NCBI GenBank assembly: GCA_030267965.1
Contig: BRYA01000531.1
Span: 1 to 64,000 of the forward strand
Source: Triparma columacea
Lineage: Eukaryota > Sar > Bolidophyceae > Parmales > Triparmaceae
DNA length: 64,000 nt
Direction of reading: 5' to 3'
A program made the translations under genes and the position numbers. Within the stretch, counting starts at the first letter, position 1; the number at the start of each line of letters is the position of its first letter. The notes beneath the pieces are model-generated. The model saw only the letters and a program-made list of their open reading frames with translations, did not search any database and was not told the DNA's origin. Positions 4,389-64,000 of the stretch are shown here, piece by piece.

Positions 4389-6275
4389 ATGCAGGTCGTC
4401 CCGGATGATAAAGAAGTGGAGGAAGTGCCAGATCACACACAACTACCCCAACAGCATGAGACCGATCTTGAAGCCAACATTGCAGTGGAGGAAGATGATA
4501 ATACGAAATTTAGGCGGCAGAGTATTGATCTTGGAATTTATCAACCACCGCGAGTTGCGCCGCTGCTCTTGACAAGCCAGCTGAAGCAGCTGACTGACAG
4601 TCAAATCTCTTCCATCGCAGACAGTCTTATCCTGTCAATCAAATCAAGCAGCGGTATTGGGAGGGCCGTCGACAGTTGGGCGGCGGATGAGCTCCCAGAG
4701 GCTGAAGGGGGAGAGGCGAAGGAGGTCATCATGTTCATGAAACGCGTCGTGCATGCACTCGCAAAAAAAATTGTAACTTGGCTCAAGATGGCAAGGATAG
4801 GCCTGACAGTAAGGATCTTCGTAGCGCTAGTGTTGACGTATGAGGATATTACAACGGATATTCTCGTCTCTATCGAATACAAGGAGACTGGGAGAGAGGG
4901 ATTTTTTCGAGCTTCAATGGGTATTCTTGTGGTTGCGATACTACTCCATTGTACAATCGCCTGGTTAGATAGCAAGAAGAAAGAGACCAACCAACGAATT
5001 CGTCGTTTAGCTATCGCGCTTTCGTTGATGACGCCGATTGTTGATGCATACAACGTTTGGACGGGGAAAGAAGCTGATCATGACCTCCAATTTACTCCAG
5101 AGGAAGCCCTTGTGATAAGCCGTGTTATTGAGCTGGTGTTTGAAAGCCTTCCCGAATCGGTACTTCAGGTGTATATACTACTCCACACGGACCGGGATGA
5201 CGTGTCCTCACTAATGGTTGTCTCCATTCTGGCATCATTGTCAGCAGCGGCGTTCATCATGTGTGATAGCAGCATTAGTTACGAACGTGAATATATGACT
5301 TCTATCGATGGGCCTCACGTTCACCCCGTGTTTGGTTATATCCCCGTTGAAAAGAGAAAGCAGATCGGCTTGTATGTCGGTATGTTCTCCTTCTTTATGG
5401 GGAACTTCGCGTCTAACGTTTTGGCGTATACAAACATGGCGATGCACTCCCCCCCCGTCGTGATCCCGGTTCTGTTATCTATGGAGATCGGGGTGTTCCT
5501 CTTCATACAACATAAGCGTGGGTTATCGGTATACTATCATGCGCCTCTTGGAAATGAGAAGTTGAGCAGCTTCTTTGTGAATTTATGCTACTACTTACTG
5601 ACTGCGATACTTCCATGGACACAACTTCGGATTCCACTTTGCAACGGCCCTGCACTGTTTGCCTTTATCATTATCTACACTAATTTGAAGAACGCTTTGA
5701 TTAATATCTACGCAGTGACCGTCAGCAGTGGTGAAACACAGGAAACGCAGCGAGCTGCGCTAATTGTGTCAGTTGTACTTGTCATGTTCGGAATTTTCTT
5801 CACGCTACTAAACTCTCATGCCGAGCACCGTAGAACTTTTTACACTTTCGAAAGGTCACTGAATGGCAAGTACTTCGATTTTGACTCATCATTGAGTGGC
5901 AACAACACATTCTACAAAACAAGAGATGAGGCAATGGGGAGGGTATGTTTCTTGTTCCATCCTGTAATTCATAGAAGGGTGCAACTTCTGGAGTGGGTAT
6001 TGTCTATCGATGTTAACAAATCGTCAATTTTCCAGTCTGGGAAAAACCTACCACGGAGCGTCTCTGGAGTCTCCGAAGATACGCCACATAGTTTCCTATT
6101 CGCCAAATTGCGCGCAATGTTTGCTTACTACGAGGACGAAGAAGCAGCGGCATTGGTGGAAGAGAAACTGTCGTCGTTGGAGGACATGCTCGCAAAGAAA
6201 ATAGAAGAGGAGGAACGGATCGTGAGGACGCCCACTTTCAATACAGAGGTTATTCACCGAACCACAAGGTCATAA
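4389..6275 (+). CDS. Polytopic membrane protein, XK-related-like family (paralogue 1)
   Basis: Single-exon frame; the first ATG is at 4389 and gives 628 residues (the frame opens a few codons earlier with TTG, unlikely as a nuclear start). The N-terminal ~130 residues are acidic and soluble. A membrane region follows, beginning with an EDITTDILVSIEY segment, then PIVDAYNVWTGKE, a helix with ESLPESVLQVY, the FGYIPVEKRK loop and at least four further hydrophobic helices; the C-terminus is charged and soluble. The same order of motifs occurs in the genes at 19214, 21606 and 55708. The TD motif in the first helix and the ExxPxxxxQ helix recall XK-related (XKR) proteins, which scramble phospholipids, but that is inference. 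It is the most divergent family member here. Start choice and membrane nature are well supported; function is not. Confidence 0.85.
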   Translation: MQVVPDDKEVEEVPDHTQLPQQHETDLEANIAVEEDDNTKFRRQSIDLGIYQPPRVAPLLLTSQLKQLTDSQISSIADSLILSIKSSSGIGRAVDSWAADELPEAEGGEAKEVIMFMKRVVHALAKKIVTWLKMARIGLTVRIFVALVLTYEDITTDILVSIEYKETGREGFFRASMGILVVAILLHCTIAWLDSKKKETNQRIRRLAIALSLMTPIVDAYNVWTGKEADHDLQFTPEEALVISRVIELVFESLPESVLQVYILLHTDRDDVSSLMVVSILASLSAAAFIMCDSSISYEREYMTSIDGPHVHPVFGYIPVEKRKQIGLYVGMFSFFMGNFASNVLAYTNMAMHSPPVVIPVLLSMEIGVFLFIQHKRGLSVYYHAPLGNEKLSSFFVNLCYYLLTAILPWTQLRIPLCNGPALFAFIIIYTNLKNALINIYAVTVSSGETQETQRAALIVSVVLVMFGIFFTLLNSHAEHRRTFYTFERSLNGKYFDFDSSLSGNNTFYKTRDEAMGRVCFLFHPVIHRRVQLLEWVLSIDVNKSSIFQSGKNLPRSVSGVSEDTPHSFLFAKLRAMFAYYEDEEAAALVEEKLSSLEDMLAKKIEEEERIVRTPTFNTEVIHRTTRS

Positions 6276-35700: not shown

Positions 35701-36957
35701 TTACAGAAATTCCAGAATAACTCTCCACATATCCTTTGGGAGTCTCTTGCATGCAGCAGTTCCCTGAAGCGCAACCACTTCATCTCCATCAAGGCGCTTC
35801 CACTTCAGCCCATCTGACAGAGCGAGAATCCACTTTATGATGAAGACTACGAGAGCATTCTCCGATCTCCTGGGCTGGTCCTCCAAGAGTGTCTTGAGGC
35901 AGGACAGAACGGTGACGCGTTCACGTATGCGGTGCCACCTAGAATGGAGGAGGTCCTCGACAGTCGCCATATTTTGTGAGGCAGCGGCAGAGATTAGGGC
36001 AGTGCAGTCCAAGAAGCAGTCTTCACTGATGGAGACGGCGGGAGATAAACAGAGCTTCGTCAGGGCAGAGCATCCGTAGAAGGAGCGATTGTGAATCCTC
36101 GTCACTGAGTCCGGGATGGTGATGGCCGTGAGGGAGGAGCATAAGTAGAAGGCGGCACGGCCAATTGACGTCACTCCGTCCGGGATTGTGATGGATGTGA
36201 GGGAGGAGCATCTGTTGAAGGCGCCATTGCCAATTGTCGTCACCCCGTCCGGGATTGTGATGGCCGTGAGGGAGGAGCATCTGTTGAAGGCGTCATTGCC
36301 AATCATCGTCACTCCATTCGGGATTGTGATGGCCATGAGGGAGGAGCATCTTAAGAAGGCGCTATTGGCAATCGTCGTCACTCCGTCCGGGATGGTGATG
36401 GCTGCGAGGGAGGAGCATCCGTAGAAGGCGCAATTGCCAATCGTCGTCACAGAGTCCGGGATTGTAATTGCTGCGAGGGAGGAGCATTCGTAGAAGGCCC
36501 AACTGCCAATCATCGTCACTCCGTCCGAAATTGTGATGGCTGCGAGGGAGGAGCATCCCTGGAAGGCCTTATTGCCAATCGACGTTACTGAGCCCGGGAT
36601 TGTGATGGCTGTGAGGGAGCAGCATCCGAAGAAGGCGTAATCGCCAATCTTCGTCACAGAGTCCGGGATTGTGATAGCTGCGAGGGAGGAGCATCCCCAG
36701 AAGGCATCATCGCCAATCGTCATCACTCCGTCCGGGATTGTGATGGCTGCGAGGGAGGAGCATTCATAGAAGGCGGCCCAGCCAATCGTCGTCACTCCGT
36801 CCGGGATTGTGATGGCTGCGAGGGAGGAGCATCCTTGGAAGGCTCCTTGGAAGGCTTGATTAGCAATCGTCGTCACTCCCTTTGCAAAAATCACCTCTGT
36901 GAGTTCACGATCATTCAAGAAGCTCTCTTTGCCAGAGTATACTGCTGATTTGGGCAT
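35701..36957 (-). CDS. BspA-type leucine-rich repeat protein (array gene 2, 12 repeats)
   Basis: 418 residues with the same MPKSAVYSGKESF start and 12 LRR_5 units. The C-terminal module is more divergent than in the other three: it has an insertion (ENALVVFIIKWILALSDGLK) and LPKDMWRVILEFL. Repeat count and the insertion separate it from genes 1, 3 and 4. Frame intact throughout. Confidence 0.87.
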   Translation of the reverse strand: MPKSAVYSGKESFLNDRELTEVIFAKGVTTIANQAFQGAFQGCSSLAAITIPDGVTTIGWAAFYECSSLAAITIPDGVMTIGDDAFWGCSSLAAITIPDSVTKIGDYAFFGCCSLTAITIPGSVTSIGNKAFQGCSSLAAITISDGVTMIGSWAFYECSSLAAITIPDSVTTIGNCAFYGCSSLAAITIPDGVTTIANSAFLRCSSLMAITIPNGVTMIGNDAFNRCSSLTAITIPDGVTTIGNGAFNRCSSLTSITIPDGVTSIGRAAFYLCSSLTAITIPDSVTRIHNRSFYGCSALTKLCLSPAVSISEDCFLDCTALISAAASQNMATVEDLLHSRWHRIRERVTVLSCLKTLLEDQPRRSENALVVFIIKWILALSDGLKWKRLDGDEVVALQGTAACKRLPKDMWRVILEFL

Positions 36958-37381
36958 TTTGGGAAGGGTTTGGGAAGGATGAAAGAAAAAGTCCTGACAG
37001 CGCTCAAGCTAGGGTATGGAGTGAATGTTTAGATGGAGAGGAGGAGATTGAAAGTTAGGGATATTGGCGGTGTAGTTTTTTGGGGACCAAATTTGAGCTA
37101 AAATACAATGTTTTTGGATATGGTGTAGGTAGTAGTATCGTTGTGTTGGTATTTTGAAGAGTTTGGTCGGTCGTGAAACGTAGCTAAAGTGTATAATACA
37201 GTTTTCTTGTCAAATTCTGCCCAAATCTCCCACCAAGGTTTTCCTCATTTTCCTCATTTTTCCTCTACTTGTGAGAGCTACTCTAAAATAGCTCAGGGAG
37301 CAGCATGAGCATGTCGCTTCTGAAAAGAGCTAAAGAATATGACACTTTTCTTGCCTACATTGTTCAACATTGATTTTAGAG
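36958..37381. other. Duplicated spacer of the LRR array
   Basis: Second copy of the spacer; its 3' flank part (from about 37185) is nearly the same as 35500-35700, including the CTCAGGGAGCAGCATGAGC block. Confidence 0.7.
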
Positions 37382-38559
37382 TTACAGAAATTCCAGAATA
37401 ACTCTCCACATAACTTTCGGGAGCCTCTTGCGTGTCGCGGTTACCCCAAGTGTTTGCGCTTCACCTCCTTCCAGTCGTTTCCTCTTTTTTTGGGTAGTAA
37501 AGAGTGTCTTAAGGCAGGTCAGAACGGTGACGCGTGCAAGTATGCGGTGCCACCTAGAATGGAGAAGGGCCGAGACAGTAGACATATTTTGTGAGGCAGC
37601 GGCAGAGATTAGGGCAGTGCAGTTTGAGAAGCAGTCTTCACCGACGGAAACGGCAGGAGATAGAATGAGTTTCGTCAGGGCAGAGCAATTTCTGAAGGCC
37701 CAGTTTCCGATCGTCGTCACTGAGTCCGGGATGGTGATGGCTGCAAGGGAGGAGCAATCAGCGAAGGCGTACTCGCTAATCTCCATAACTCCATCCGGGA
37801 TGGTGATTGCTGCAAGGGAGGAGCATGACCTGAAGGCGTTAATGCCAATCGACGTCACAGAGTCCGGGATTGTGATGGCTGCGAGGGAGGAGCATCCCCT
37901 GAAGGCGCCATAGCCAATCGACGTCACAGAGTCCGAGATTGTGATGGCTGCGAGGGCGGTGCACCCGTAGAAGGCTTCATCACCAATCGAAGTCACAGAG
38001 TCCGGGATGATGATGGCTGCGAGGGAGGAGCATCCATAGAAGGCGCCACGGCCAATAGTCGTCACTCCGTCGGGGATGGTGATGGCTGCGAGGGAGGAGC
38101 ATCCGAAGAAGGCATTAACGCCAATCGTTGTCACTGAGTCCGGGAGTGTGATGGCTGCGAGAGAGGAGCATCCGCAGAAGGCGCTATAGCTTTCGTCGTC
38201 ACTCCGTCCGGGATGATGATGGCCGTGAGAGAGGAGCATCTTTGGAAGGCCTGATTGCTAATTGTCATCACTCCAATTGGGATGGTGATGGCCGTGAGGG
38301 AGGAGCATTCGTGGAAGGCGCCATTGTTTATTGTCGTCACTGTGTCCGGGATTGTGATAGCTGCAAGGGAGGAGCATCCAGAGAAGGCGCCCTTACCAAT
38401 CGACGTTACTCCGTCCGGGATGGTGATGGCTGCGAGGGAGGAGCATCTACAGAAGGCCTCATCGCCAATCGAGGTCACTCCCTTTGCAAAAGTCACCTCT
38501 GTGAGTTCACGATCGCCCCAGAAGCTCTCTACGCCAGAGTATACTGCTGATTTGGGCAT
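37382..38559 (-). pseudogene. BspA-type leucine-rich repeat gene with a 1-nt frameshift (array gene 3)
   Basis: The start (MPKSAVYSGVESF at 38559) and first four repeats are in one frame; the remaining eight repeats and the C-terminal module are in another (to 37382). Comparison with sister repeats places the loss of one base at about 38186-38196, where the sisters have 12 bases between ACGACG and GCCTTC and this copy has 11. If real, the product stops about 142 residues in and loses the C-terminal module. A sequencing or collapse error in a highly repetitive stretch is the alternative. All else resembles a functional gene of 12 repeats. Confidence 0.8.
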
Positions 38560-38980
38560 TTTGGGAAGGATTTAGGAAGGATGAAAGTAATAGTACTGAC
38601 AGCCCTTGAGTTAGGGTATGGAGTGAATGTTTAGGTGGAGAGGATGAGATTGAAAGTTAGGTGTTTGGTCGATGTAGTTTTGTTGGGGACCAAATGTGAG
38701 CTCAAACTACAATATGTTTGGATATAGTGTAGGTATTATAATCGTTGTTGGTATTGTGAAGAGTGTAGTCGGTTGTGAATAGTAGCTAAAGTCTATAATA
38801 CAGCTTTCTTGCCAATAATGCCCAAATCTTTCCCACCAAGCCCCAAGCCCCAAAATATATTTATGGTTTGAGGTCTTTGGAGCCTCCAAAAAAGAAAACG
38901 TGTTCGTAAATTGCAAAAGAAAGCATTGTTCGTGAATATTGCAGGACTCTTCTGCGTGCCGTTCAACAGTGACTTTAGAG
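38560..38980. other. Duplicated spacer of the LRR array
   Basis: Third copy of the spacer; its promoter-side half matches the others, while 38820-38960 differs (AAAAAAGAAAACG region), so the 3' flank of gene 4 is not fully shared. Confidence 0.65.
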
Positions 38981-40021
38981 TTACAGAAATTCCAGAATAA
39001 CTCTCCACATAACTTTCGGGAGCCTCTTGCGTGTCGCGGTTACCCCAAGTGTTTGCGCTTCACCTCCTTCCAGTCGCTTCCTCTTTTTTGGGGTAGTAAA
39101 GAGTGTCTTAAGGCAGGTCAGAACGGTGACGCGTGCAAGTATGCGGTGCCACCTAGAATGGAGGAGGTCCAAGACAGTCGACATATTTTGTGAGGCAGCG
39201 GCAGCGATTAGGGCAGTGCAGTTTGAGAAGCAGTCGAAACTGACGGAGACCGCGGGAGATAAACTGAGTCTCGTCAGGGCAGAGCATCCGTAGAAGGCTT
39301 CATGGCCAATCGACGTCACTGAGTCCGGGATTGTGATGGCTGCGAGGGAGGAGCATTCCACGAAGGCGTTATTGCCAATCGACGTCGCTCCGTCCGGGAT
39401 GGTGATGGCTGCGAGGGAGGAGCATTTGTAGAAGGCGCTATTGCCAATCGACGTCGCTCCGTCCGGGATGGTGATGGCTACGAGGGAGGAGCATCCCCAG
39501 AAGGCGCCATCGCCAATCGACGTCACTGAGTCCGGGATTGTGATGGCTGCCAGGGCTGTGCAACTCAGGAAGGCGTAATAGCCAATCTCCGTAACTCCAT
39601 CCGGGATTGTGATGGCTGCGAGGGAGGAGCAGTGGCTAAAGGCGCCATCGTAAATCGTTGTCACTCCGTCCGGGATTGTGATGGCTGTGAGGGAGGAGCA
39701 ATCTCTGAAGGCGCGCTCGCCAATCGTTGTCACTGAGTCCGGGATGGTGATGGCTGCGAGGGAGGAGCAATATGCGAAGACGCATTGACCAATCGACGTC
39801 ACAGAGTCCGGGATGGTGATGGCTGTGAGGGAGGAGCATCCGTGGAAGGTGTTATCGCCAATCGTCGTCACTGAGCCCGGGATTGTGATGGCTGAGAGGG
39901 AGGAGCATCCGAAGAAGGCCTCATCGCCAATCGACGTCACTCCCTTTGCAAAAGTCACCTCTGTGAGTTCATGATCTTCAAAGAAGCTCTCTTTGCCAGA
40001 GTATACTGCTGATTTGGGCAT
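38981..40021 (-). CDS. BspA-type leucine-rich repeat protein (array gene 4, 10 repeats)
   Basis: 346 residues with 10 LRR_5 units between the common start and the C-terminal module LPKVMWRVILEFL. The module is almost the same as in genes 1 and 3, arguing for recent duplication or gene conversion. The unit-to-unit DNA period is 69 bp. No signal sequence. Confidence 0.87.
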   Translation of the reverse strand: MPKSAVYSGKESFFEDHELTEVTFAKGVTSIGDEAFFGCSSLSAITIPGSVTTIGDNTFHGCSSLTAITIPDSVTSIGQCVFAYCSSLAAITIPDSVTTIGERAFRDCSSLTAITIPDGVTTIYDGAFSHCSSLAAITIPDGVTEIGYYAFLSCTALAAITIPDSVTSIGDGAFWGCSSLVAITIPDGATSIGNSAFYKCSSLAAITIPDGATSIGNNAFVECSSLAAITIPDSVTSIGHEAFYGCSALTRLSLSPAVSVSFDCFSNCTALIAAAASQNMSTVLDLLHSRWHRILARVTVLTCLKTLFTTPKKRKRLEGGEAQTLGVTATRKRLPKVMWRVILEFL

Positions 40022-44104: not shown

Positions 44105-47035
44105 TTAAAGCACACCGACGAACGAGTTGCTTCTCTTGAGCTTGGCAGGCGCATTGGCATTAGCACCCTTGATCCTTGTGCTTCTCTCCATCCTCATCAT
44201 TGCCTCCCTAGTGCTCCTCACGAACTTGGGGTCCCTGATGGCGGACTGCACGGTTGAGGGCGCGTTGATAAAATCCTTCCTGGTGATACACCCGATGACG
44301 CGCTGGCGGGAGTCTACAACAATCAAATGCCTTAGACCCATGCCCCTGAAGAGCCTCAGCACGCGGCGAAGACTGAGCTGGCTCTGCACGATGAATGGCT
44401 GAGGGTCCATTGCAAGGGATATGTCGATTGAGGCCTTTCCATCCTGCTTCATTGTATCCAGGCATTTGTCGAGATTCTCGCGCGTGATGGAGCCGCAGAA
44501 GAATCTGTTCATGCCGCTTACTCCAGTGTCGACGACGGGGAATGTGTTGTGGGTATTGTTCAAAGCATCCTCGATCTCACCCATTGTGGGCTCGACGCCA
44601 ATCATGACAGGGTTCCTCGCCATGATATCCTGAGCGCTCAGGGTATCAAACACATCAGGAGGGTCGGGTTCGAGGTAAGGGATACTCGCAAGATCCATGT
44701 GGACGTCGTAGAGGCTGTGCGTGAACTTGTCCCCAACCGCCTTGGATATAGCGAGGGCAAGCATGATGGGCAGCAGGTAGTTGATGTCGTTCGAAATCTC
44801 AACCATTATGACCGTGAGGGAAATTGTCATCCTAGTTATACCACCGAGAATTGCAGATGCTCCCACGAGGGCGTAAAGTCCAGGGTCGACCTTGCCAGGG
44901 ACAACGAGGTTAAGAAGTTCTGTGAACGAAAAAGGCGCGTGAGCGAGCGAGTGAGTCAGCGAGCATTAGAGACCTTGGGGTTTGAAAGCTCAGGAAATGA
45001 AACCTTACCTCCAATCAGCCTCCCGAAGCCAGCTCCAATCATCATGGAAGGAATAAAAAGCCCGGCGGGGACAGCGACTCCGTAGGCCGTGACGGCGCAG
45101 ACGAAGAAGAATACCGTGAAGACGGCAAGAGTTGTAATGCTAAAGTACCCCTGGGTGTTCCTGCTGTACAACTGGAGGATGGTAGTCTCCTGAGGCGTCA
45201 GAAGCAAGGTCGCAAACTCGTTGTACACGGAGGGAATTTCGCTCGCAGCCAGGCGGCGGTGGTCGTCCTGACAGTTGTACTGGACGGGGTTGATACCGTG
45301 GAAGCCGGTGTGGTGACTCATGTCATCGTTCGACGGAACATCCTTGCAGGGCCAAAGCATGGGAAGCCAGAAGAAGAGTGTGAGCATCCCACCCACGACA
45401 ACCCAGGCCTCAACGACCCTCCACAAGGGGCTCTTTCCGGCCCAGAACTTCTTCCTCGCCATGGTGATATGTTCGTTGATGTAAACGTAGGCCGAACCTA
45501 CCAGCCCGCCAATGACGGCAATGACCATGAAGACAAACACTTCCCACACGGCGTAGGTGCCATCGTCCTCGGTGGTGTGACCGAAAAGCACAAGACCTTG
45601 GTCAGCGAACCCTCCGGCGTTGACAGCCATGAAGATGTTGACAGTGTAAGCGGCGATGATGGCGCAGATGAAGGACCTCCAAGTGAGGGCGGGGGACCAG
45701 AAGGAGGAGACCTCTTCGAGAGAGAAGAGGATCCCGCCGATTGGCGCGTTAAAGGCTGCGGCAACGCCGGCGGCGGCTCCCATGGAGACAAAATCGCGCC
45801 TGTCCTTGGTGTTGTCGAAGCCTGCGTAAATGCCTGGCAGGCATGGTAGGTAGTCGGAGTAACCGCGGGCAAGGCCAGCAGAGAGGATGGCTCCGGTGTG
45901 AACCATGGGGCCTTCCCTTCCAGCTGGCATGCCAGAAGTAACGCAGAGACTGATGCCAACGACCTTGGCGATAAGGGTCTTCATCCTGAGAATACCAGGG
46001 ACTTGGTTACCATTGAGGTAGGCCTTGACCTGGGGAATTCCCGAGCCAGCAGACTCGGGAGCCCAGACAACTAGCATCGCAGCTCCAGTAAGGGATGCTA
46101 TGACCCACCCCATGTAGTAAAAGTACGCCTCCCACGTCTTTCCCTCCTGCATCAACTTCCAGGTGTTATCCCACTTGACAGTGACCATCCTACCGACGCA
46201 GAAAGTCATCCAGTACGCGATGCAGCCCGTAATGGTTCCGATAAGGAAGAGGTAAACCCAACGGAAGAGTTCCTTCTTCCTGCCTTCCCTCTCGACCTAG
46301 GGGTAGAGGAGGCGGCAACAACCAGCGGGGCGATGGTGAGCGAGGAAGGAATAATTTATAGTTTAGAATGTGTATGGTACATTCTCTTCCGCAGCTCACC
46401 TCGCCCTTGTCCCTGAGAATCCCTGACATGAACTCATTGTCAGGGGTGTCGTAGTCAAAGCTCTCGAACTTCTCGCCGAGCTTTTTACGATACCTGCGGG
46501 ACGAGAACCTGAGAAGTGGAGGGAGAGGGTGGGGCGAGGGAGGGTTAAGGTAAGAATTTTACAGCTCAGTATCGTGGTCCCCCACACAGCTCATACAAAA
46601 CTCACTTTGCATACGACTTGCTAGGCGTCGTGACCATGTTCCTTAGGGATTTGCCCATATCTTTGAGCGTTGGTCCGTGGCCAAGATCGTCTAGGGCCTC
46701 GTTGCCGACACTATCCCGGATCCTTTTCAACTCCGATTCTGTTGATGGATCCTTACTTGATTGGTCATCAACAAACCTCTGCGACGGGCGGGTTTGGTAA
46801 GATGACGGGGGAATTAATCCGAAGCAACGGCATTAACGGGGGGAAGATCAAATTAGTGTCTAGGATACAACAGAAACAACCAACGTACCCTTAGCACCTT
46901 GATCTCATTTCGGAGCCTTTCAATCTCTGAAAGCTCCTGCTTGGGCTTTTTACCACCCTCAACGTCGCCGCCGAGGAGTACATTCTTGGTGCCCATGGTG
47001 GTCAACTCCATCTGAACGTGCTTCTTGCCACCCAT
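44105..47035 (-). CDS. CLC-family chloride channel/transporter with two CBS domains (5 exons)
   Basis: Exons 46889-47035, 46606-46778, 46400-46508, 45009-46296 and 44105-44919 join in phase to 843 residues. CLC selectivity motifs are present: GSGIP (227-231), GREGP (269-273, gating Glu 271) and GLFIP near the end of exon 4. E338 in LFSLEEVSSFW is where Cl-/H+ exchangers carry the proton glutamate, so I expect an exchanger (CLC-6/7 or plant CLC-d type) rather than a channel; this is inference. The C-terminal cytosolic part has two CBS domains (NPVMIGVEPTMGEIEDAL... and ...SLRRVLRLFRGMGLRHLIVV), usual for eukaryotic CLCs. The location is probably endomembrane. Head to head with the FKBP gene. 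Confidence 0.93.
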
Positions 47036-55707: not shown

Positions 55708-56720
55708 ATGGAGGGCGAGGTTGAAGCAGATGCGGGAGTCGTGAATGACGCCGGAAAGACCAACTTCGCCTCCGAGCCCCCCTCAGGCCCCATTCACACA
55801 CCCTCCGCTATACGCGGTCCCGTAGATATCGATTACACAGCTCTTGGTCTCGAACAAGGTAAACTTGTCAAGCTTCTGGATGACCGAGGAGCCGTTGAAG
55901 GCCTCATAGACAACTCTACCGGCGTCGATGTGAAAGTTATGGAGCTCGCTGATGTTTTCCACGACGAGCGCGACAAAGCCATTGACTTTCTCCTCACCGA
56001 TTGTGAGCAGGGCAAGTTCCGAAGGAAGACCCTCCAGGAGTATGACGAAAAGGAAGGAGTCGTTCACAGACTAGTCTACTGGCAGCACTACGGCAGCGGG
56101 AATAAGTTTATCGAATTTCTCCTCAATGTCAAAGTAGTATCTCCTGACAAATCGACGAACATTATGGAGTTGGCACCCCTTGATGAGGATGACCTTTCTG
56201 ATGAGGGAACTGCGATGCTTGCCAGAATTCTAGCGTCAACAAAGACCAAGATTGTCCAACGAGGTGTCATTAAGGGCAAACTCAGCTTCACTGATTTTGA
56301 GTTTGGACAAACTGCAGTCACCATGGTGGGAACTCTTAAGGCAGAGGAGAGAGCAACAGAGATGAAACCAGAAGTTGGTGTTCGCACAGTCAAAAGCTTT
56401 AAGAGCGCGAGATCCACGAGATCTGGCGTTGAAGGCAGGAACAGTGGCAGGACCAAGAAGGGAGACGTCAAGGCTGTGTATGCAGCTGTCAAGGGTATCA
56501 TGGAGGAGGTCGGGAAGAAGTTCAGACAGCCTGGTCTCATTGATGAGAGGAGGAAAAGACACTTTGTAGAGGACGTCATGCCCAATGTGCCAACTCTTAC
56601 TGAGGAAGAGGACAGGATGCTGGAAAGTGTTGCAGGGCTAGAGGAGGAACTCTACAAGAAGGGAAAGAGAGTCAAGGGGACACTGAAGGAGGGTATTGAC
56701 AAGTTCCTTTGGAGAGAGGA
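55189..56720 (+). repeat. Right arm of long inverted duplication
   Basis: Plus-strand counterpart of 1-1670. Similarity certainly continues to 56720, where the left arm leaves the window, so the true arm may be much longer. Contains 5' flank and the first 340 codons of the giant gene. Confidence 0.9.
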
Positions 56721-59700
56721 GGACAATGTGTGGGCAGCCTTTGGGGTCACTGTGGACAAGTCAGCAAAGGGTGTGTTGGCAGAGCAATTTCTGCTTGACG
56801 CATTTGCGCGATCTGAGAAACACTTCAAAAATAATGGGAACTTACCAAGGGTTATCAGGAATGATTTTAAGGGAACTAGAAGCACGCACTATCATTCTGG
56901 CGTGAAGGTCCCTGCTGCCACCAATCGACTCTTTGAGAATTGGTTTGTGTGGAAGGAAGTCAAACTTGAGAATGGCCAGACTTCATACATGGTAGCTTTT
57001 GTGCCGCTGACAGAGTACCCAGGAGGAGGCTTCAAGGACCTTAGTAAGGAAGGATTTGTGCTAGCAGAGTCTACAGGTGTCTACTTCTTCAACGAGATCG
57101 CTCCAAATGTCTGCAGAGTAACACGCATTCAAACAGTTGATCTGAAATTTAGTGGCATTCATAAGACAGTGATGGACAATGCCATTGACTACCTTGCAAA
57201 GAATCAGCTTGTTGAGGCCAACAGGTTGCAGAAGAAGTTCAGGAGGAACGGGAAGGAAGTTGATGCTGAGGTCAGGGTGGCCTTGGTGGAGAGGATGAGG
57301 CAGGGCGTTGATTTGGAGGAGGACCAGAAGAAGGTGTTTGGGGAGTTGGAGGAGCTCTTTGGTGGGGAGGATAAAGAAGGGTGGGGGCCTCTTGAGTCAC
57401 CTTATGAGGGAGTGAAGATGGAGACCAAGTACAAGCAGCAGGAGAAAGGGCAAAGGAGCATTGCACTAGGAAAGGCTAGCGGAATGGCAGACTGTACAGC
57501 AGAGGAGGCAGCAGCATGGTACTTTGAGTACTGTGGCAGGGAGAGGAACACTCTTGGTTTCCAGGCTGGCGATCTTGCCCGGCTTGAAGTAAGAAAGGGA
57601 GGGCAAAGGAGAAACGAGAAGCTGATTGTGTCAGTCAAGAAGTTTCCTTTCCTGCTCAATAACAGAGAATTTGTCTTTAGACATCTGTGGAAAAAGTATG
57701 AAAATGACAGTATCTCTGTTGGCTCTTGGCCAAGCAACGATGAGATTGATTACGGTGGAGAAATAAAAAATGCAGTCAGAGCAGAAGGCAGAGGACTGCT
57801 AATAGCTACCAACATCAGCAAAGAAGAAGGGATAGCGCAGTGTAAGCTTGATTTCAAACAGCACTTGGATGCAGGCGGTTTCACCCCCCTAAAACTTCTT
57901 GAGAAAAAAATTCCAAAGCAACTGCAAATCTTACATGAGATTCAAGAAGCTTTCAAGCAAGATGAGGAGATTGATAAGGCTGCGCTAGAGAATCTTGCAC
58001 ACATCATCAAGAACGAACACCAAGATTATACTGATGAGGAGAAAGCGGCAATCAGGAAGGGGAAGGAACTTTATGAGAAGTGCAAGATCGATGAGAACTT
58101 TGATGATTTGAAGAGTCCTGATGAGAGGGTCAAGATGAAGCTAGTCCATGTTGATGGGGCAAGCAGTGGGACTGGTTTTGCCACTACTGTGGTAGATGCT
58201 AGTGTTGAGGAGTGTGCAGCATATGAATATACCAAGTTGGGCAACAGGTATTTTACTAGGAATGCCAAAGACATTGATGGAATCACCTTCTTGAAAGTCA
58301 TCAAAGTAAATCCCCACACTCTCTACTACGTAACAACAAGGAACCTTGGCATCCCTGGTTTTGTTCCTCGTGATAGTAGGAGTAAAATTACCTGGTTCAA
58401 GCAAGATAACGGCAAAATTATCATTGACGTTGCAGACACAGAGGAGGTTCAGGTAGACTTTCCAGTGAAGGCTGGGAATATTTTAGTAAAGATTCACACA
58501 GTATGGGTGTTTGAGCCACTTGACCCTATTGGAGGTGTGCCACAAACATCAGTCACTTTCACAACAAAGGTAGATCTTGGTGGTATTATCTTCTCCTCCA
58601 TTGTGAACAAGCTTGCACCAAGATTTCTTACGATAGTCTCAAGTTTGAGGAAGAAATTTGACAAGAGCAAAGAGAATGACGCCTTCAAGAGACAGCAGAT
58701 CATTGCAAAGTTTGAAGAGATTGCAATTGAGGGAGCACCAGGGATTGAAAGTCACTTTGATGAGATTGATGGAGCTCAAGAGATCAGTAGTGCGTTGACT
58801 GGGCAGACATTGATAAAGGCAGAGAAGAGAATGGGGTGGGGGAAGACTTCAATATCTGTGAGAGCATCCAACAAGGAAGTTGCAGCATACTTCTGGGGCC
58901 TTAAAAGTGGAGTTGCCTCCAAGCTTGATTTTCACAGATTAAACAACAAGACACTTGTTATCACAGTTGGACACAAAAGACATTTCACTGCTGCAAAATT
59001 TGGCGAGGTAGACCAGAATAAGACGGAGGTTGTATTGGTGACTAGACATGAGGGTTTAGGAAAAGCTGCCAGCAAAAAGAGCGTAATTAAGCACCTGGGC
59101 ATGGCAACTGATGCTGCTTACTACTTTGACAATCTGCTGAAGAGCAATGAAGCAAGGGAACAGGATGGGAGGAGGTTTGGAGAGCAGCTGATGGAGAGAC
59201 TGAAGAAAAGGAATGTTGGGGACAGTAAAGTAGAGGTAGTAAGGGACTTTATTGCCGCCAATAGGACACTGGGAGAGATTACAGAGCAGCATGGTTTCAT
59301 GAGAACACTGCTGTATGCTGTGGTTATGAACAAACTTAAAAGGAGAGCAATTAATGAGGGAGAAGATAATAGTGAGGAGGAAGCCAGGGGATGGGAGATT
59401 GGGAGTGCAATAACAGCAGTCATGTTGACTACTTTGTCTGCTGCTCATGCTGTAGATGAGTGGGCTCATCAATTCACTGAATTGCAAGAAGTCATGAACG
59501 AACAAGTTTGGTTAAGGCCCATGCTTGAGGAGATTGTTATGAATCTATTTAAGAAGTCTAACTTAGGCTTAAAGGCAAGGGTGACTGTTGGGGCTATTAC
59601 TAGTATGTCTGATTTGCTCACTGATGTGTATGTCACTTACATGTTTTTGAGTGATGAGAAGTATGGGTACTTTAAGGCATCATTGGCAAGTTTGACAGTA

Positions 59701-62700
59701 TCAATTGGGATTCAAATGTTTGCTATTTGGGGACAGAATAGGAAGTTAGGGATGAAGAGGGTGCTAAGGGAGTTGTTTCCTATTTTGATTGGGTTTAAGC
59801 CCGCAGTTGATGCTTACAGGGTAGCAACTGGAGCAAAGCAAGAGGTTGGAACATCATTTGACCCAATGCTTGAGATGTCAGTTATGAAAGTTGTTGAGAT
59901 GTTTGCTGAGGCAATTCCTGGAGTCATCATCCAACTTATGGCTATAGCAACCAGTAATAAAGATGTTGGAACTTCAGCATGGCTTTCAGTTGCAGTGTCA
60001 GCAATTACAACAGGCTTTGCCTCTGCAACTATTAGTTATGACTATGACACAGATCCTGCTAAGAGAGAATATGCACCAGACTTTTATGGGTATATACCAG
60101 CAAAAGCAAGCAAGAGAACAGTAGTATTTGTGTCCATGTTGCTATTCACTGCAGGAATGCTTCTAATAAAGTGTACAACAATAGTTCTTCTTGGGTTGAT
60201 GGGAGGTAGTTGGGTCTTTCTTTACATTGGAGCTGACCTTGGTTTGTACTTGTTGGTTAAGATATTGAGGGGTGACTTCTGGTACTGGTTGCCATTGGGG
60301 GGTATGTTAGAGATTGTGAGTAGTATTCTATTTAGAGTAGTTGTAAAGATCATTGTAGACTTCACTTCCATAGTACACTATAGACATCCTAATGAAGTAG
60401 GAGGAGCCTACTGGTTATTTGGTCTCATAATGACAATAGGAAGCCTACCAGTGTCAATACATTTAACTTCACCTTATGTAGAAGAGGGAGCAATTGATAT
60501 TGCATCAACTATTGCAAAGTATTTCATACTGATAACTGCCCTATGTTTTGCTGTCTTCTTTTTGAACATTGAAAGGAAATACTGGCACACATTTTGGAGC
60601 ACACAGAAAGGGAAGCACAAGACTATGGAATATTTCCTTGAAGGGAAAACTGATGCAATAATGTTTTCAGTCTTTAAAAGGTCAGAACATCATTGGGTTT
60701 CAATTGAAGGAGAAATAAGGAAGTGGGTTGAGTTAAACTGGGCTAAGTGGGAAGAGGAGCAGCCAGAATGGTTTACTGATGTTATGAAATCTAAGGTGCC
60801 TGTAGATTTTATTCCATCAGATGGAGATGCTAGAAGAAGAGAGAGTGTCAGGAGAGCAAGTGTTGATGCTGAAGCTGAGGGTGGTCTAGCAGGTACTTTG
60901 GGAGCAAGTATTAGGAGAGCAAGTGTTGGCTTGGACAATGGAGGTGCACTGATTGCTTCACACGCTGTGAATGATACTACACAAGACTATGCAGGTTTAG
61001 ATCCAAAAGAAATAGGAAAGTTTTTGGGCGAGCAACTGTTGGTTGCATTAAACTTCAGTAAAAAGGGGATTACAAAGGAGCAAGCGGTCAGGTCATTTAT
61101 TTGGAAAAACTACGTTCTGAGACAGGCTGCAGAGAAGTATGTGGTTGTTACACCAATGCTTGGCGCTGTTGTCAAGAACAAGCTGCTTGGGCTTAGGAAG
61201 GTAGATGGTAAGGCTGCGGAGCTTGGGGAGAATGAGGGAAGGCAGATTGGAGAGTCTCTAGCGAGGAGTTTGGCTATCAACACTCAGCCAGCTGCTGCAG
61301 TTGATGCCTTCATATTAAATTTCTCTGCCCTACAGGAGCTTGATGAGGAATATGAATGGTTCAGACCTATGCTTGAGACAATTAGCTACAGACTTTTGGA
61401 GGAAGTTCCGTGGGGGTTGAAAGCAAGAGTGACTGTTGGGGCTATTACTAGTATGGCAGATTTGCTGACTGATGTGTATGTGACAAACATGTTTTGGAGT
61501 GATAAGAAGTATGGATACTTTAAGGCATCTTTGGCAAGTCTGGTAGCGTCAATAGGCATACAGATGCTTTTTGTTTGGGCTCAGAATAGAAATTTGGGAA
61601 TGAAACGGGTGTTAAGGGAATGGTTTCCAATTTTGATTGGATTTAAACCTGCAGTTGATGCTTACAGGGTAGCAACTGGGGCAAAGCAAGAGGTTGGGAC
61701 ATCATTTGACCCAATGTTTGAGATGTCATTCGTAAAATGCACTGAGATGTTTGCTGAGGCAATCCCTGGAGTGATTATCCAACTTATGGCTATTGCAACA
61801 AGTGACAAAGATGTTGGAACTTCAGCATGGCTTTCAGTTGCAGTGTCAGCAATTACAACAGGCTTTGCCTCTGCAACTATTAGTTATGACTATGACACAG
61901 ACCCTGCTAAGAGAGAACACACACCTGACTTCTATGGGTATATACCTGCAAATGCAAGCAAGAGAACAGTAGTGTTTTTGTCACTGTTGGTGTTCACTGC
62001 AGGAATGCTTCTAATAAGGTGCATGACAATAGTTCTTCTTGGGTTGATGGGAGGTAGTTTGGTCTTTCTCTACATTGGAGCTGATCTTGGTCTGTTCTTG
62101 TTGGTTAAGATATTGAGGGGAGACTTTTGGTACTGGATACCATTGGGGGGTAACTTAGAGATTGTGAGTAGTATTCTATTCAGAGTGATCCCAAAGATTG
62201 TTATAGACTTCACATCAATTGTGCAGTTTAGGCATCCCAATGAAATTGGGGGAGTGTATTGGTTGTTTGGTCTTTTATTGACCATGGGAAGCCTTCCAGT
62301 GTCGATATATATAGCTTCACCTTATGTTTATGAGCAGGCAATTGATATTGCGTGGACAATTGTGAAGATTTTCTTACCAAGTAGTGGCTTGTGCTTGGTA
62401 ATATTCTTTTCAAACATTGAGAGGAAGTACTTGCATACCTTCTGGAGTCCACAGAGGTCAAAGGATATGTCAATGGCATTTTTTCTTGACGGAGAAAGTG
62501 ATGCAATAAAGTTTGAGGTCTTTGCAAGCTCAAGACATCACTGGGTCTCAATTGAAGGAAAATTAAGAAAGTGGATTGAGTTGAACTGGGCTGAATGGGA
62601 AAGGGAGAAGCCAGAGTGGCTTACCGATGTGAGGAAAGCTTTGGTTCCAGTCGATTTCATTCCATCAGATGGAGATGCTAGAAGGAGAGAGAGTGTCAGG

Positions 62701-64000
62701 AGAGCAAGTGTTGATGCTGAAGCTGAGGGTGGTCTAGCAGGTACTTTTAGAGCAAGTTTTAGGAGAGCAAGTGTTGGCTTGGACAACGAAGGGGCACTGG
62801 TTCCTTCACATGCTGTGAATGATACTACACAAGACTATGCAGGTTTAGATCCTAATCAAATAGGAAAGTTGTTGGGTGAGCAACTGTTGGTTGCATTAAG
62901 TTTCAGGAAGAAGGGAATGACAAAGGAGGAAGCTGTCAGGTCATTTATAGTGTCAAACTATATTCTCAGACAGGCTGCAGAAAAGTACTCGTTTGCCATA
63001 CCAATGTTTGACGCTGTTGTCAAGAATAAGCTGCGCAAGTTGAGGAAGGTAGAGGGTAAGGCTGCAGAGCTGGGAGAGAAGGAAGGAAGGGAGATTGGAG
63101 AGTCTCTAGCGAGGAGCTTGGCTATTAATACAAAGCCAGTTGCTGCAGTTGATGCCTTCATATTAAATTTCTCTGCTCTACAGGAGCTTGATGAGGAATA
63201 TGTATGGTTCAGACCTATGCTTGAGGCAATTAGCTACAGGCTTTTGGAGGAAGTTCCTTGGGGGTTGAAGGCAAGAGTGACTGTTGGGGCTATCACTAGT
63301 ATGGCAGATTTGCTGACTGATGTGTATGTTACATACATGTTTTGGAGTGATGAGAAATATGGGTACTTTAAGGCTTCTTTGGCAAGTTTGATGGCGTCAA
63401 TTGGGCTTCAGATGTTTTTTGTCTGGGGTCAAAACAAAAAGTTGGGGATGAAAAGGGTCTTAAGGGAATGGTTTCCAATTTTGATTGGATTCAAACCTGC
63501 TGTAGATGCTTACAGGGTAGCAAATGGAGGAAAGCAAGAGACTGGGCATGCTGTTGATCCAATGTACGAGATGACTGTCATGAAAGGGATTGAGATGTTT
63601 GCTGAGGCCATACCTGGAGTGATCATCCAACTTATGGCTATTGCAACAAGTAAAGACGACATTGATGATGCAGCTTGGGTCTCACTTTCAGTTTCAGCAT
63701 TGACAACAGGCTATTCATCTTCAACCATCAGTTATGACTGGGACACTGACCCAGTGAAGAGAGAACAAGTGCCTGACTTCTATGGGTATGTGCCTGCAAA
63801 TCCAACCAAGAGATCTATCATATTTGTTTCAATGATGTTCTTTAGTGCAGGTATGCTCGTGATAAGGTGCATGACAATAGTTTTGTTAGGGCTACTTGGT
63901 GGTAGATGGGTCACTCTCTATATTTGTGCTGACCTTTGTCTGTATTTGTTGGTGAAGATCTTTAGAGGAGACTTTTGGTATTGGATTCCTGTCGGTGGGC
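55708..64000 (+). CDS. Giant START-like and repeated XK-related-like membrane protein (partial, runs off right edge)
   Basis: From ATG 55708 every codon to 64000 is open: 2764 codons, no intron. Residues 1-590 are soluble without a known domain. Three segments resemble START lipid-transfer domains: about 594-707 (AEEAAAWYFEYC), 821-937 (SVEECAAYEYT) and 1041-1127 (SNKEVAAYFW). Three copies of the polytopic core follow, at about 1281-1694, 1897-2310 and from 2514 to the edge, each with TSM(S/A)DLLTDVYVT, KPAVDAYRVA(T/N)G (AVDAYRVANGG in the last), AEAIPGVIIQLMAI, DFYGYIP or DFYGYVP and RGDFWYW. Their DNA period is exactly 1848 bp. A Ser/Arg linker (RRESVRRASVDAEAEGG) and a helical segment separate them. 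The body is nearly devoid of CpG. Lipid sensing or transport at a membrane is a guess from the START-like parts. An outward-facing twin starts at 1116. Confidence 0.87.
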   Translation, partial: MEGEVEADAGVVNDAGKTNFASEPPSGPIHTPSAIRGPVDIDYTALGLEQGKLVKLLDDRGAVEGLIDNSTGVDVKVMELADVFHDERDKAIDFLLTDCEQGKFRRKTLQEYDEKEGVVHRLVYWQHYGSGNKFIEFLLNVKVVSPDKSTNIMELAPLDEDDLSDEGTAMLARILASTKTKIVQRGVIKGKLSFTDFEFGQTAVTMVGTLKAEERATEMKPEVGVRTVKSFKSARSTRSGVEGRNSGRTKKGDVKAVYAAVKGIMEEVGKKFRQPGLIDERRKRHFVEDVMPNVPTLTEEEDRMLESVAGLEEELYKKGKRVKGTLKEGIDKFLWREEDNVWAAFGVTVDKSAKGVLAEQFLLDAFARSEKHFKNNGNLPRVIRNDFKGTRSTHYHSGVKVPAATNRLFENWFVWKEVKLENGQTSYMVAFVPLTEYPGGGFKDLSKEGFVLAESTGVYFFNEIAPNVCRVTRIQTVDLKFSGIHKTVMDNAIDYLAKNQLVEANRLQKKFRRNGKEVDAEVRVALVERMRQGVDLEEDQKKVFGELEELFGGEDKEGWGPLESPYEGVKMETKYKQQEKGQRSIALGKASGMADCTAEEAAAWYFEYCGRERNTLGFQAGDLARLEVRKGGQRRNEKLIVSVKKFPFLLNNREFVFRHLWKKYENDSISVGSWPSNDEIDYGGEIKNAVRAEGRGLLIATNISKEEGIAQCKLDFKQHLDAGGFTPLKLLEKKIPKQLQILHEIQEAFKQDEEIDKAALENLAHIIKNEHQDYTDEEKAAIRKGKELYEKCKIDENFDDLKSPDERVKMKLVHVDGASSGTGFATTVVDASVEECAAYEYTKLGNRYFTRNAKDIDGITFLKVIKVNPHTLYYVTTRNLGIPGFVPRDSRSKITWFKQDNGKIIIDVADTEEVQVDFPVKAGNILVKIHTVWVFEPLDPIGGVPQTSVTFTTKVDLGGIIFSSIVNKLAPRFLTIVSSLRKKFDKSKENDAFKRQQIIAKFEEIAIEGAPGIESHFDEIDGAQEISSALTGQTLIKAEKRMGWGKTSISVRASNKEVAAYFWGLKSGVASKLDFHRLNNKTLVITVGHKRHFTAAKFGEVDQNKTEVVLVTRHEGLGKAASKKSVIKHLGMATDAAYYFDNLLKSNEAREQDGRRFGEQLMERLKKRNVGDSKVEVVRDFIAANRTLGEITEQHGFMRTLLYAVVMNKLKRRAINEGEDNSEEEARGWEIGSAITAVMLTTLSAAHAVDEWAHQFTELQEVMNEQVWLRPMLEEIVMNLFKKSNLGLKARVTVGAITSMSDLLTDVYVTYMFLSDEKYGYFKASLASLTVSIGIQMFAIWGQNRKLGMKRVLRELFPILIGFKPAVDAYRVATGAKQEVGTSFDPMLEMSVMKVVEMFAEAIPGVIIQLMAIATSNKDVGTSAWLSVAVSAITTGFASATISYDYDTDPAKREYAPDFYGYIPAKASKRTVVFVSMLLFTAGMLLIKCTTIVLLGLMGGSWVFLYIGADLGLYLLVKILRGDFWYWLPLGGMLEIVSSILFRVVVKIIVDFTSIVHYRHPNEVGGAYWLFGLIMTIGSLPVSIHLTSPYVEEGAIDIASTIAKYFILITALCFAVFFLNIERKYWHTFWSTQKGKHKTMEYFLEGKTDAIMFSVFKRSEHHWVSIEGEIRKWVELNWAKWEEEQPEWFTDVMKSKVPVDFIPSDGDARRRESVRRASVDAEAEGGLAGTLGASIRRASVGLDNGGALIASHAVNDTTQDYAGLDPKEIGKFLGEQLLVALNFSKKGITKEQAVRSFIWKNYVLRQAAEKYVVVTPMLGAVVKNKLLGLRKVDGKAAELGENEGRQIGESLARSLAINTQPAAAVDAFILNFSALQELDEEYEWFRPMLETISYRLLEEVPWGLKARVTVGAITSMADLLTDVYVTNMFWSDKKYGYFKASLASLVASIGIQMLFVWAQNRNLGMKRVLREWFPILIGFKPAVDAYRVATGAKQEVGTSFDPMFEMSFVKCTEMFAEAIPGVIIQLMAIATSDKDVGTSAWLSVAVSAITTGFASATISYDYDTDPAKREHTPDFYGYIPANASKRTVVFLSLLVFTAGMLLIRCMTIVLLGLMGGSLVFLYIGADLGLFLLVKILRGDFWYWIPLGGNLEIVSSILFRVIPKIVIDFTSIVQFRHPNEIGGVYWLFGLLLTMGSLPVSIYIASPYVYEQAIDIAWTIVKIFLPSSGLCLVIFFSNIERKYLHTFWSPQRSKDMSMAFFLDGESDAIKFEVFASSRHHWVSIEGKLRKWIELNWAEWEREKPEWLTDVRKALVPVDFIPSDGDARRRESVRRASVDAEAEGGLAGTFRASFRRASVGLDNEGALVPSHAVNDTTQDYAGLDPNQIGKLLGEQLLVALSFRKKGMTKEEAVRSFIVSNYILRQAAEKYSFAIPMFDAVVKNKLRKLRKVEGKAAELGEKEGREIGESLARSLAINTKPVAAVDAFILNFSALQELDEEYVWFRPMLEAISYRLLEEVPWGLKARVTVGAITSMADLLTDVYVTYMFWSDEKYGYFKASLASLMASIGLQMFFVWGQNKKLGMKRVLREWFPILIGFKPAVDAYRVANGGKQETGHAVDPMYEMTVMKGIEMFAEAIPGVIIQLMAIATSKDDIDDAAWVSLSVSALTTGYSSSTISYDWDTDPVKREQVPDFYGYVPANPTKRSIIFVSMMFFSAGMLVIRCMTIVLLGLLGGRWVTLYICADLCLYLLVKIFRGDFWYWIPVGG
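59581..64000 (+). repeat. 1848-bp tandem coding repeat (two full units and part of a third)
   Basis: The landmark GTGACTGTTGGGGCTAT falls at 59581, 61429 and 63277 (GTGACTGTTGGGGC there, then TATC), each 1848 bp (616 codons) apart. Units 60817-61430 and 62659-63278 are almost the same over linker and helical segment. No net indel in either period. Confidence 0.92.

Follow-up and report, generated by a model that had tools for sequence, protein, structure and literature searches.

What is encoded by the very long open reading frame (ORF) that runs off the end of a 64,000-nucleotide stretch of the Triparma columacea genome, and what could such a protein do? The stretch analysed here (the window) is bases 1-64,000 of the 65,749-base contig BRYA01000531.1, from an assembly of 37.85 Mb in 789 contigs (GCA_030267965.1); published parmalean assemblies measure 31-44 Mb, with an N50 of 63-83 kb in five of eight (PMC10328945). 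A first-pass annotation of the window had described an uninterrupted ORF of at least 2764 codons, and this was borne out: a single unspliced frame starts with an ATG, is still open at the window end and continues on the contig to give a protein of 3,005 amino acids. Around 0.9 kb past the ORF stop begin telomere repeats, (TTAGGG)n with occasional TTATGG units, which run to the contig end at 65,749; the gene therefore adjoins a telomere and reads towards it. The reading that we favour, with moderate confidence, is that this is the telomere-proximal member of a large subtelomeric family in which START modules, covalently fused to one to three XKR scramblase modules, have been shuffled as cassettes, and which would couple the hand-off of lipids to their scrambling.

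It is clear that the ORF did not arise by chance, since it holds about 3,000 stop-free codons at 42-48% G+C, has long relatives in separate metagenome assemblies (P0002-P0005, 2,383-2,479 amino acids, aligning along the whole query, residues 821-1900) and shows pairwise ratios of non-synonymous to synonymous substitution (dN/dS) of 0.17-0.52. Among the matches listed, the only relatives with an organism name come from Triparma columacea and T. laevis; most of the others are metagenomic (JGI, ENA).

The C-terminal part of the protein consists of three direct copies spaced 1,848 bp apart, which are 82-85% identical over a 300-bp reference stretch. The PF09815 profile matches three stretches of the ORF (46.8 bits against a cut-off of 24.8), and when an AlphaFold model of unit 2 was compared to the PDB the top structures were XKR9, XKR4 and XKR8; across the aligned cores the unit is 12-14% identical to these solved animal chains. 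The first-pass annotation had predicted an XKR fold and at least three multi-span membrane cores with 20 or more spans; structure comparison confirmed the fold, the cores proved to be the three XKR units, and around 24 spans would be expected from three units if each has the 8 spans (plus 2 half-spans) of solved XKR8/9 (PMC10938166). Searched by sequence, the PDB gave no match either to the part of the protein encoded in the window or to unit 1, and a profile search of it reached XKR9 weakly (E 0.0062). The essential charged residues are in place: the counterparts of XKR8 D26, D30, E137 and E141 are each kept in 61 of 61 alignment rows, and that of K134 in 60, the remaining row having R. Scrambling of lipids across the bilayer is a property of XKR4, XKR8, XKR9 and XK (PMC10938166). 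Elsewhere in the window (4389-6275, plus strand) a separate single-unit XKR gene of 628 amino acids (PF09815 E 1.6e-10), without a Pfam START match, has the same D-x3-D and E-x3-E residues as the units of the large ORF.

The dN/dS range given above comes from the 120 unit pairs that share more than 250 codons, among 153 pairs of 18 units. All 112 XKR matches listed are free of stops over their matched stretches; match counts taken from scored genome-search candidates, here and below, are lower bounds and not totals. In a tree of the same 18 units, which has five weak forks, the three units of the 3,005-amino-acid copy did not group together; instead, its first unit forms one clade (100/100) with the first units of the copies L006, L015 and L018. 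The idea that the three units are recent tandem copies was therefore rejected. As first units of different copies group in this way, the tandem arrangement seems to be older than the divergence of the copies compared.

In front of the XKR units, a model of the N-terminal region contains five helix-grip units, and structure comparison of this model found the START fold, which supports the START-like segments of the first-pass annotation. START domains bind lipids. The first full domain (START1) matched a profile of Pfam-confirmed parmalean START segments with an hhalign probability of 92, and unit 4 matched the profile partially (probability 82, 40 columns); for residues 60-200, the region of unit 0, hhalign gave no match to it (probability 3.3). 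Among relatives, Pfam START matches 6 of 24 alignment rows at E up to 0.05, and three frames from the genome (C602, C166 and C620) exceed its cut-off.

Each XKR unit closes with an Arg/Ser-rich tail, which in unit 1 reads RRRESVRRASVDAEAEGGLAGTLGASIRRASVG, and a RRRESVRRASV-type sequence is common to the unit tails. In the model the tail scores low, with a predicted local distance difference test score below 50 for unit residues 570-616, yet its sequence is conserved: the mean entropy at positions 561-600 (0.76-0.94 bits) lies between the extremes seen in the membrane core (0.47-1.27 at positions 141-440). RRxS, the consensus of PKA-type kinases, is present at least twice in 51 of the 61 rows; chance expectation from composition is 0.11 per 616 residues. 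The last unit has RRESVR and RRESVG near the C-terminus, at residues 2943 and 2969 of 3005. In XKR8 a C-terminal tail keeps the scramblase shut until it is opened by caspase cleavage or phosphorylation (PMC10938166); given this precedent and the conserved RRxS sites, the tails perhaps put the family under phosphorylation control. The genome has 130 matches to cyclic nucleotide-binding domains, which fit cyclic-nucleotide signalling and do not show a PKA.

How large is the family, and where does it lie? Copies were counted by an exact degenerate nucleotide pattern for the XKR-unit motif D-L-x-T-D-V-Y-V, which gave 257 + 283 = 540 sites in the genome and 0 for a reversed-pattern control. Positions were analysed for the first 100 places listed of the 540 (contigs C1-C122). 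Within 10 kb of left contig ends lay 52 of the 100, all 52 on the minus strand and so pointing outward, and a further 3 minus-strand places were farther away; 45 were on the plus strand, and the 20 of these on the 12 contigs with a known right end were all within 10 kb of it. Neighbour spacings below 4 kb were 1,848-1,857 bp in 29 of 37 cases. Extrapolation from about 60 clusters per 100 listed places gives roughly 300 genes, a figure that may count both haplotypes.

Telomeric ends, defined as arrays of at least 8 repeats, were listed for contigs C1-C104 and part of C105; a sample of 20 systematically chosen contig starts, 9 of them masked, was left out of the rate. An outward XKR motif lies no more than 10 kb from 23 of the 30 listed ends (nearest motif at a median of 2.1 kb, range 1.6-3.9) and an inward one at none of the 30. 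Direct reading adds the right end of C75 and the left end of C2, a diverged copy whose match shifts frame near its 3' end, so that 25 of the 30 ends have a START-XKR or XKR gene.

Comparison of copies shows where they differ. The number of XKR units per copy is one (L015, L023), two (L018) or three (the 3,005-amino-acid copy). Amino acid identities across the START region were compared for 16 rows (14 comparable in START3), of which only four are long enough sequences from the same genome. Median identity is 0.76 in START1 (340-600) and 0.78 in the stretch 751-840, and falls to 0.45 in START2 (610-750), where it is 0.37-0.50 between types. One START2 type is shared by the 3,005-amino-acid copy and L018 (0.87), a second by L015, L023, P0002-P0005, P0136 and P0138 (0.68-1.00), and a third by P0008 and P0135 (0.85); four further rows stand singly. 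START3 is also typed, but with different partners: the 3,005-amino-acid copy and L015 share START3 and not START2, as do P0135 and P0146, while P0135 and P0008 have START2 in common and not START3. P0136, from T. columacea, and the metagenomic P0003 are identical across the START2 stretch and only 0.84 identical in START1.

The same mosaic is seen at the nucleotide level. In windows over codons 301-600 the 3,005-amino-acid copy, L015 and L023 are alike; over codons 601-800 identity is 0.58-0.66 between the first two and 0.82-0.87 between L015 and L023, and over codons 1001-1400 the order is reversed (0.80-0.93 and 0.42-0.57, respectively). MaxChi placed the strongest edge at residues 765-782; for this edge, none of the 2,000 permutations run for each of three triplets gave as high a value. 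Two of the three triplets also showed a second edge, at 581-591, which lies outside the permutation result. Furthermore, 8 of 40 scored contigs (C26, C544, C67, C170, C92, C81, C611 and C471) match both flanks and not part of START2, with query bases 698-950 missing in all eight; in C161 and C528 the match is lost in START3, and 25 of the 40 match nearly the whole query. START2 and START3 are thus discrete types exchanged between otherwise similar copies. Since they vary strongly compared to the better-conserved START1 and scramblase core, this suggests that ligand choice is what diversifies among copies.

A mechanism can be proposed on this basis. If each XKR core crosses the membrane an even number of times, as in XKR8/9, both ends of each 8-span core, the START domains and all the tails would share the cytosolic side. 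The START domains may take up a particular lipid and pass it to, or gate, the adjacent scramblase, which would equilibrate the delivered lipid across the bilayer. Such coupling of lipid delivery or sensing to scrambling is suggested by the presence of START and XKR domains in one chain; the protein would then do by itself what VPS13A and XK are proposed to do as separate partners, namely couple lipid transfer to scrambling (PMC9436381). By analogy to the C-terminal plug of XKR8, the Arg/Ser tail might keep the scramblase shut until an AGC/PKA-type kinase phosphorylates RRxS. Recombination between chromosome ends would exchange the START2 and START3 cassettes, which could be why copies differ so strongly in their lipid-binding domains. 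The role in sensing or moving membrane lipids suggested by the first-pass annotation would be consistent with this scheme.

Several observations weigh against this interpretation. A conserved charged path is not proof of scrambling, since XKR7, in the account given in PMC10938166, is without demonstrated phosphatidylserine scrambling, and the median dN/dS of 0.30 is a sign of moderate constraint only. The Pfam START profile (PF01852) has no match in the 3,005-amino-acid copy, even with the START segments searched alone, and so the case for START leans on the model and on relatives; the Pfam non-match is, however, a detection criterion and not a defining trait of START domains. The START-region model has a predicted template modelling score of 0.53, which does not fix relative domain placement or the geometry of hand-off. 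RRxS is absent from 6 of the 61 rows and occurs once in another 4, some of these rows being incomplete, and the motif could serve something other than a kinase. The copy at the right end of C75 is a leader and one XKR unit without START, so START-XKR coupling is not obligatory. Finally, variation is not confined to START2 and START3, as the stretch 1040-1270 past START3 varies widely too (median identity 0.42).

Could the diversity instead serve recognition? Under this alternative, which we regard as unlikely though worth pursuing, the chromosome ends would be a combinatorial lipid-recognition repertoire of hundreds of START-XKR effectors in which old START2/START3 types, found across species, are reshuffled; the cassettes would sense viral, prey or mating-partner lipids, and the XKR output would expose phosphatidylserine or lyse the cell. 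Telomeric placement combined with cassette exchange speaks for such a repertoire, and XKR8 is an apoptotic scramblase (PMC10938166). Its surface arm would be telomeric genes with EGF-like, membrane-spanning, START and kinase parts. Five of the 30 telomeric ends were left to which no START-XKR or XKR gene is assigned. Three of them (C53 left, C68 left at 8 kb from the end, and C98 right at about 3 kb) have matches of the type of L051 (732-3569), which combines an EGF-like, Cys-rich ectodomain and a probable transmembrane span with a START-like domain, and at C53 a protein kinase occupies a neighbouring frame; a fourth, C70 left (5 kb read), has an Ephrin_rec_like receptor. The receptor START domain is 48-56% identical to the START domains of long end-located frames and 49% identical to residues 751-996 of the 3,005-amino-acid protein, and these telomeric receptor-START genes make recognition worth testing. 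Equally, START2 types common to several species would fit standing functional types, and whole-unit dN/dS stays below 0.53. If the alternative holds, the repertoire would be joined by the receptor-START-kinase genes, and copies that sense or transport different lipids would respond by scrambling the membrane of the cell itself, in the service of immunity, allorecognition or programmed death. Long L051 matches on the minus strand lie mostly no more than 10 kb from the contig left end, and Ephrin_rec_like receptor genes lie at or near telomeres (L050, 321-4472; L053, 2-2749, the latter also with a WW domain).

Alternatively, the chain could be a polyprotein from which cleavage at the Arg-rich tails frees single-unit scramblases, as the sequence common to the tails and the caspase activation of XKR8 (PMC10938166) might suggest. 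This seems improbable. A six-frame search of the genome for metacaspases that could cut the tails turned up no Peptidase_C14 (caspase/metacaspase) domain, though introns could hide one; this weakens the cleavage model, other proteases being possible. The last unit carries its motifs with no partner left to release, and the RRxS serine is kept along with the arginines when cleavage alone would not need it.

We also give little credence to a bulk structural supply of lipid, for silica-plate vesicles or the flagellar membrane, in which case the many copies would reflect dosage and the ease with which genes duplicate at chromosome ends. Lipid domains, START included, are enriched in Parmales (PMC10328945), and functional genes are duplicated subtelomerically in Cyanidiophyceae red algae (PMC9812998), but dosage leaves unexplained the discrete START2 and START3 types between the better-conserved START1 and stretch 751-840. 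That the family is an assembly artefact or non-functional subtelomeric filler is hardly credible, for although contig-end repeats are typical places of misassembly, the L052 copy shifts frame near its 3' end and the masked contig starts could not be judged, related long frames occur in separate metagenome assemblies and in T. columacea, the listed XKR matches are free of stops, dN/dS is below 0.53 in 120 of 120 unit pairs, and telomere repeats close the very contig that carries the 3,005-amino-acid gene.

Features of the large ORF, in window coordinates
Feature	Position	Strand	Remarks
Whole ORF in window	55708..63999	+	2764 codons; stop at contig position 64725
Helix-grip (START-like) unit 0, residues 75-214	55930..56349	+	Model secondary structure only
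START-like domain 1, residues 330-510	56695..57237	+	hhalign, cross-copy identity, model; best-conserved START
START2, residues 569-769	57412..58014	+	Swapped cassette; edges near 581-591 and 765-782
START3, residues 772-990	58021..58677	+	CERT/StarD4-like START fold; also typed between copies
Short helix-grip unit 4, residues 1033-1143	58804..59136	+	Model; partial profile match
XKR unit 1, 616 amino acids	59158..61005	+	Helical N part, 8-span core (~59569-60594), Arg/Ser tail
XKR unit 2, modelled	61006..62853	+	XKR4/8/9 fold, unit residues 128-479
XKR unit 3	62854..63999	+	Cut at window end, complete on contig
Unit 1 tail, three RRxS (RRESVR, RRASVD, RRASVG)	60835..60927	+	
Unit 2 tail, three RRxS (RRESVR, RRASVD, RRASVG)	62683..62775	+	

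Other genes of the window include a row of BspA-type leucine-rich-repeat ORFs (35701-40021, minus strand; LRR_5 E down to 1e-106) and, at 44105-46209 (minus strand), a pair of adjacent ORFs with a voltage-gated chloride-channel domain and CBS domains, probably one spliced gene. The contig ends L030, L032, L034 and L038 bear short tandem repeats of GAGAAGTAAA and AAAGGGTGT, probably telomere-associated satellites; on L030 they immediately precede TTAGGG repeats. C70 (75,484 bp), C71 (about 84.3 kb) and C75 (67,733 bp) have telomere repeats on both ends and so look like complete chromosomes of very small size, of which the genome may hold many, to go by how many telomeric ends it has.

The domain families themselves are known. 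Compared to the XKR scramblases (XKR8, XKR9, XKR4, XK; PF09815), the protein strings several cores together, places START domains ahead of them and adds an RRxS tail, and it differs from animal XKR proteins in the low identity of its cores and in coming from a genome in which the six-frame search found no caspase-type domain. The START family (PF01852: CERT, STARD4, StAR) appears here as several domains in a row on a polytopic protein, typed, swapped as cassettes and, in the 3,005-amino-acid copy, below Pfam detection. VPS13A-XK is alike in that a lipid-transfer protein partners an XKR scramblase (PMC9436381); there, two proteins are involved and the transfer protein is bridge-like, whereas here one chain carries START-type domains. 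START multidomain proteins have been described in this same group of organisms by Ban et al. 2023, who report that START domains have expanded and become fused to kinases, transporters and transcription factors (PMC10328945); 'XK-related' and 'telomer' have 0 occurrences in the main text of that paper. Subtelomeric multigene families of red algae (PMC9812998) and of protists, parasites among them, likewise have copies at chromosome ends, but the examples considered are stress-adaptation or surface-antigen genes, in contrast to the lipid-transfer and scramblase fusions found here at most telomeric ends examined. The first-pass annotation knew of no protein with this architecture, and no description of a START-XKR fusion or of its telomeric placement was found in the literature searched, which excluded subscription journals, preprints and supplements. 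This suggests that the chain, the copy number, the location and the mode of variation are undescribed; the telomere, the family size, cassette shuffling and RRxS conservation had all been outside the view of a reading from the window alone.

Lipid transfer and scrambling in one chain would be a natural 'Rosetta stone' for partnerships of the VPS13-XK type, of which ATG2-ATG9 is another, and START-XKR chains offer single proteins in which lipid hand-off could be tested directly. To our knowledge the START-XKR family would be among the largest scramblase expansions in any genome. It lies in the sister group of the diatoms, at chromosome ends where it is reshuffled, and it points to chromosomes as small as 68-84 kb with telomere repeats on both ends.

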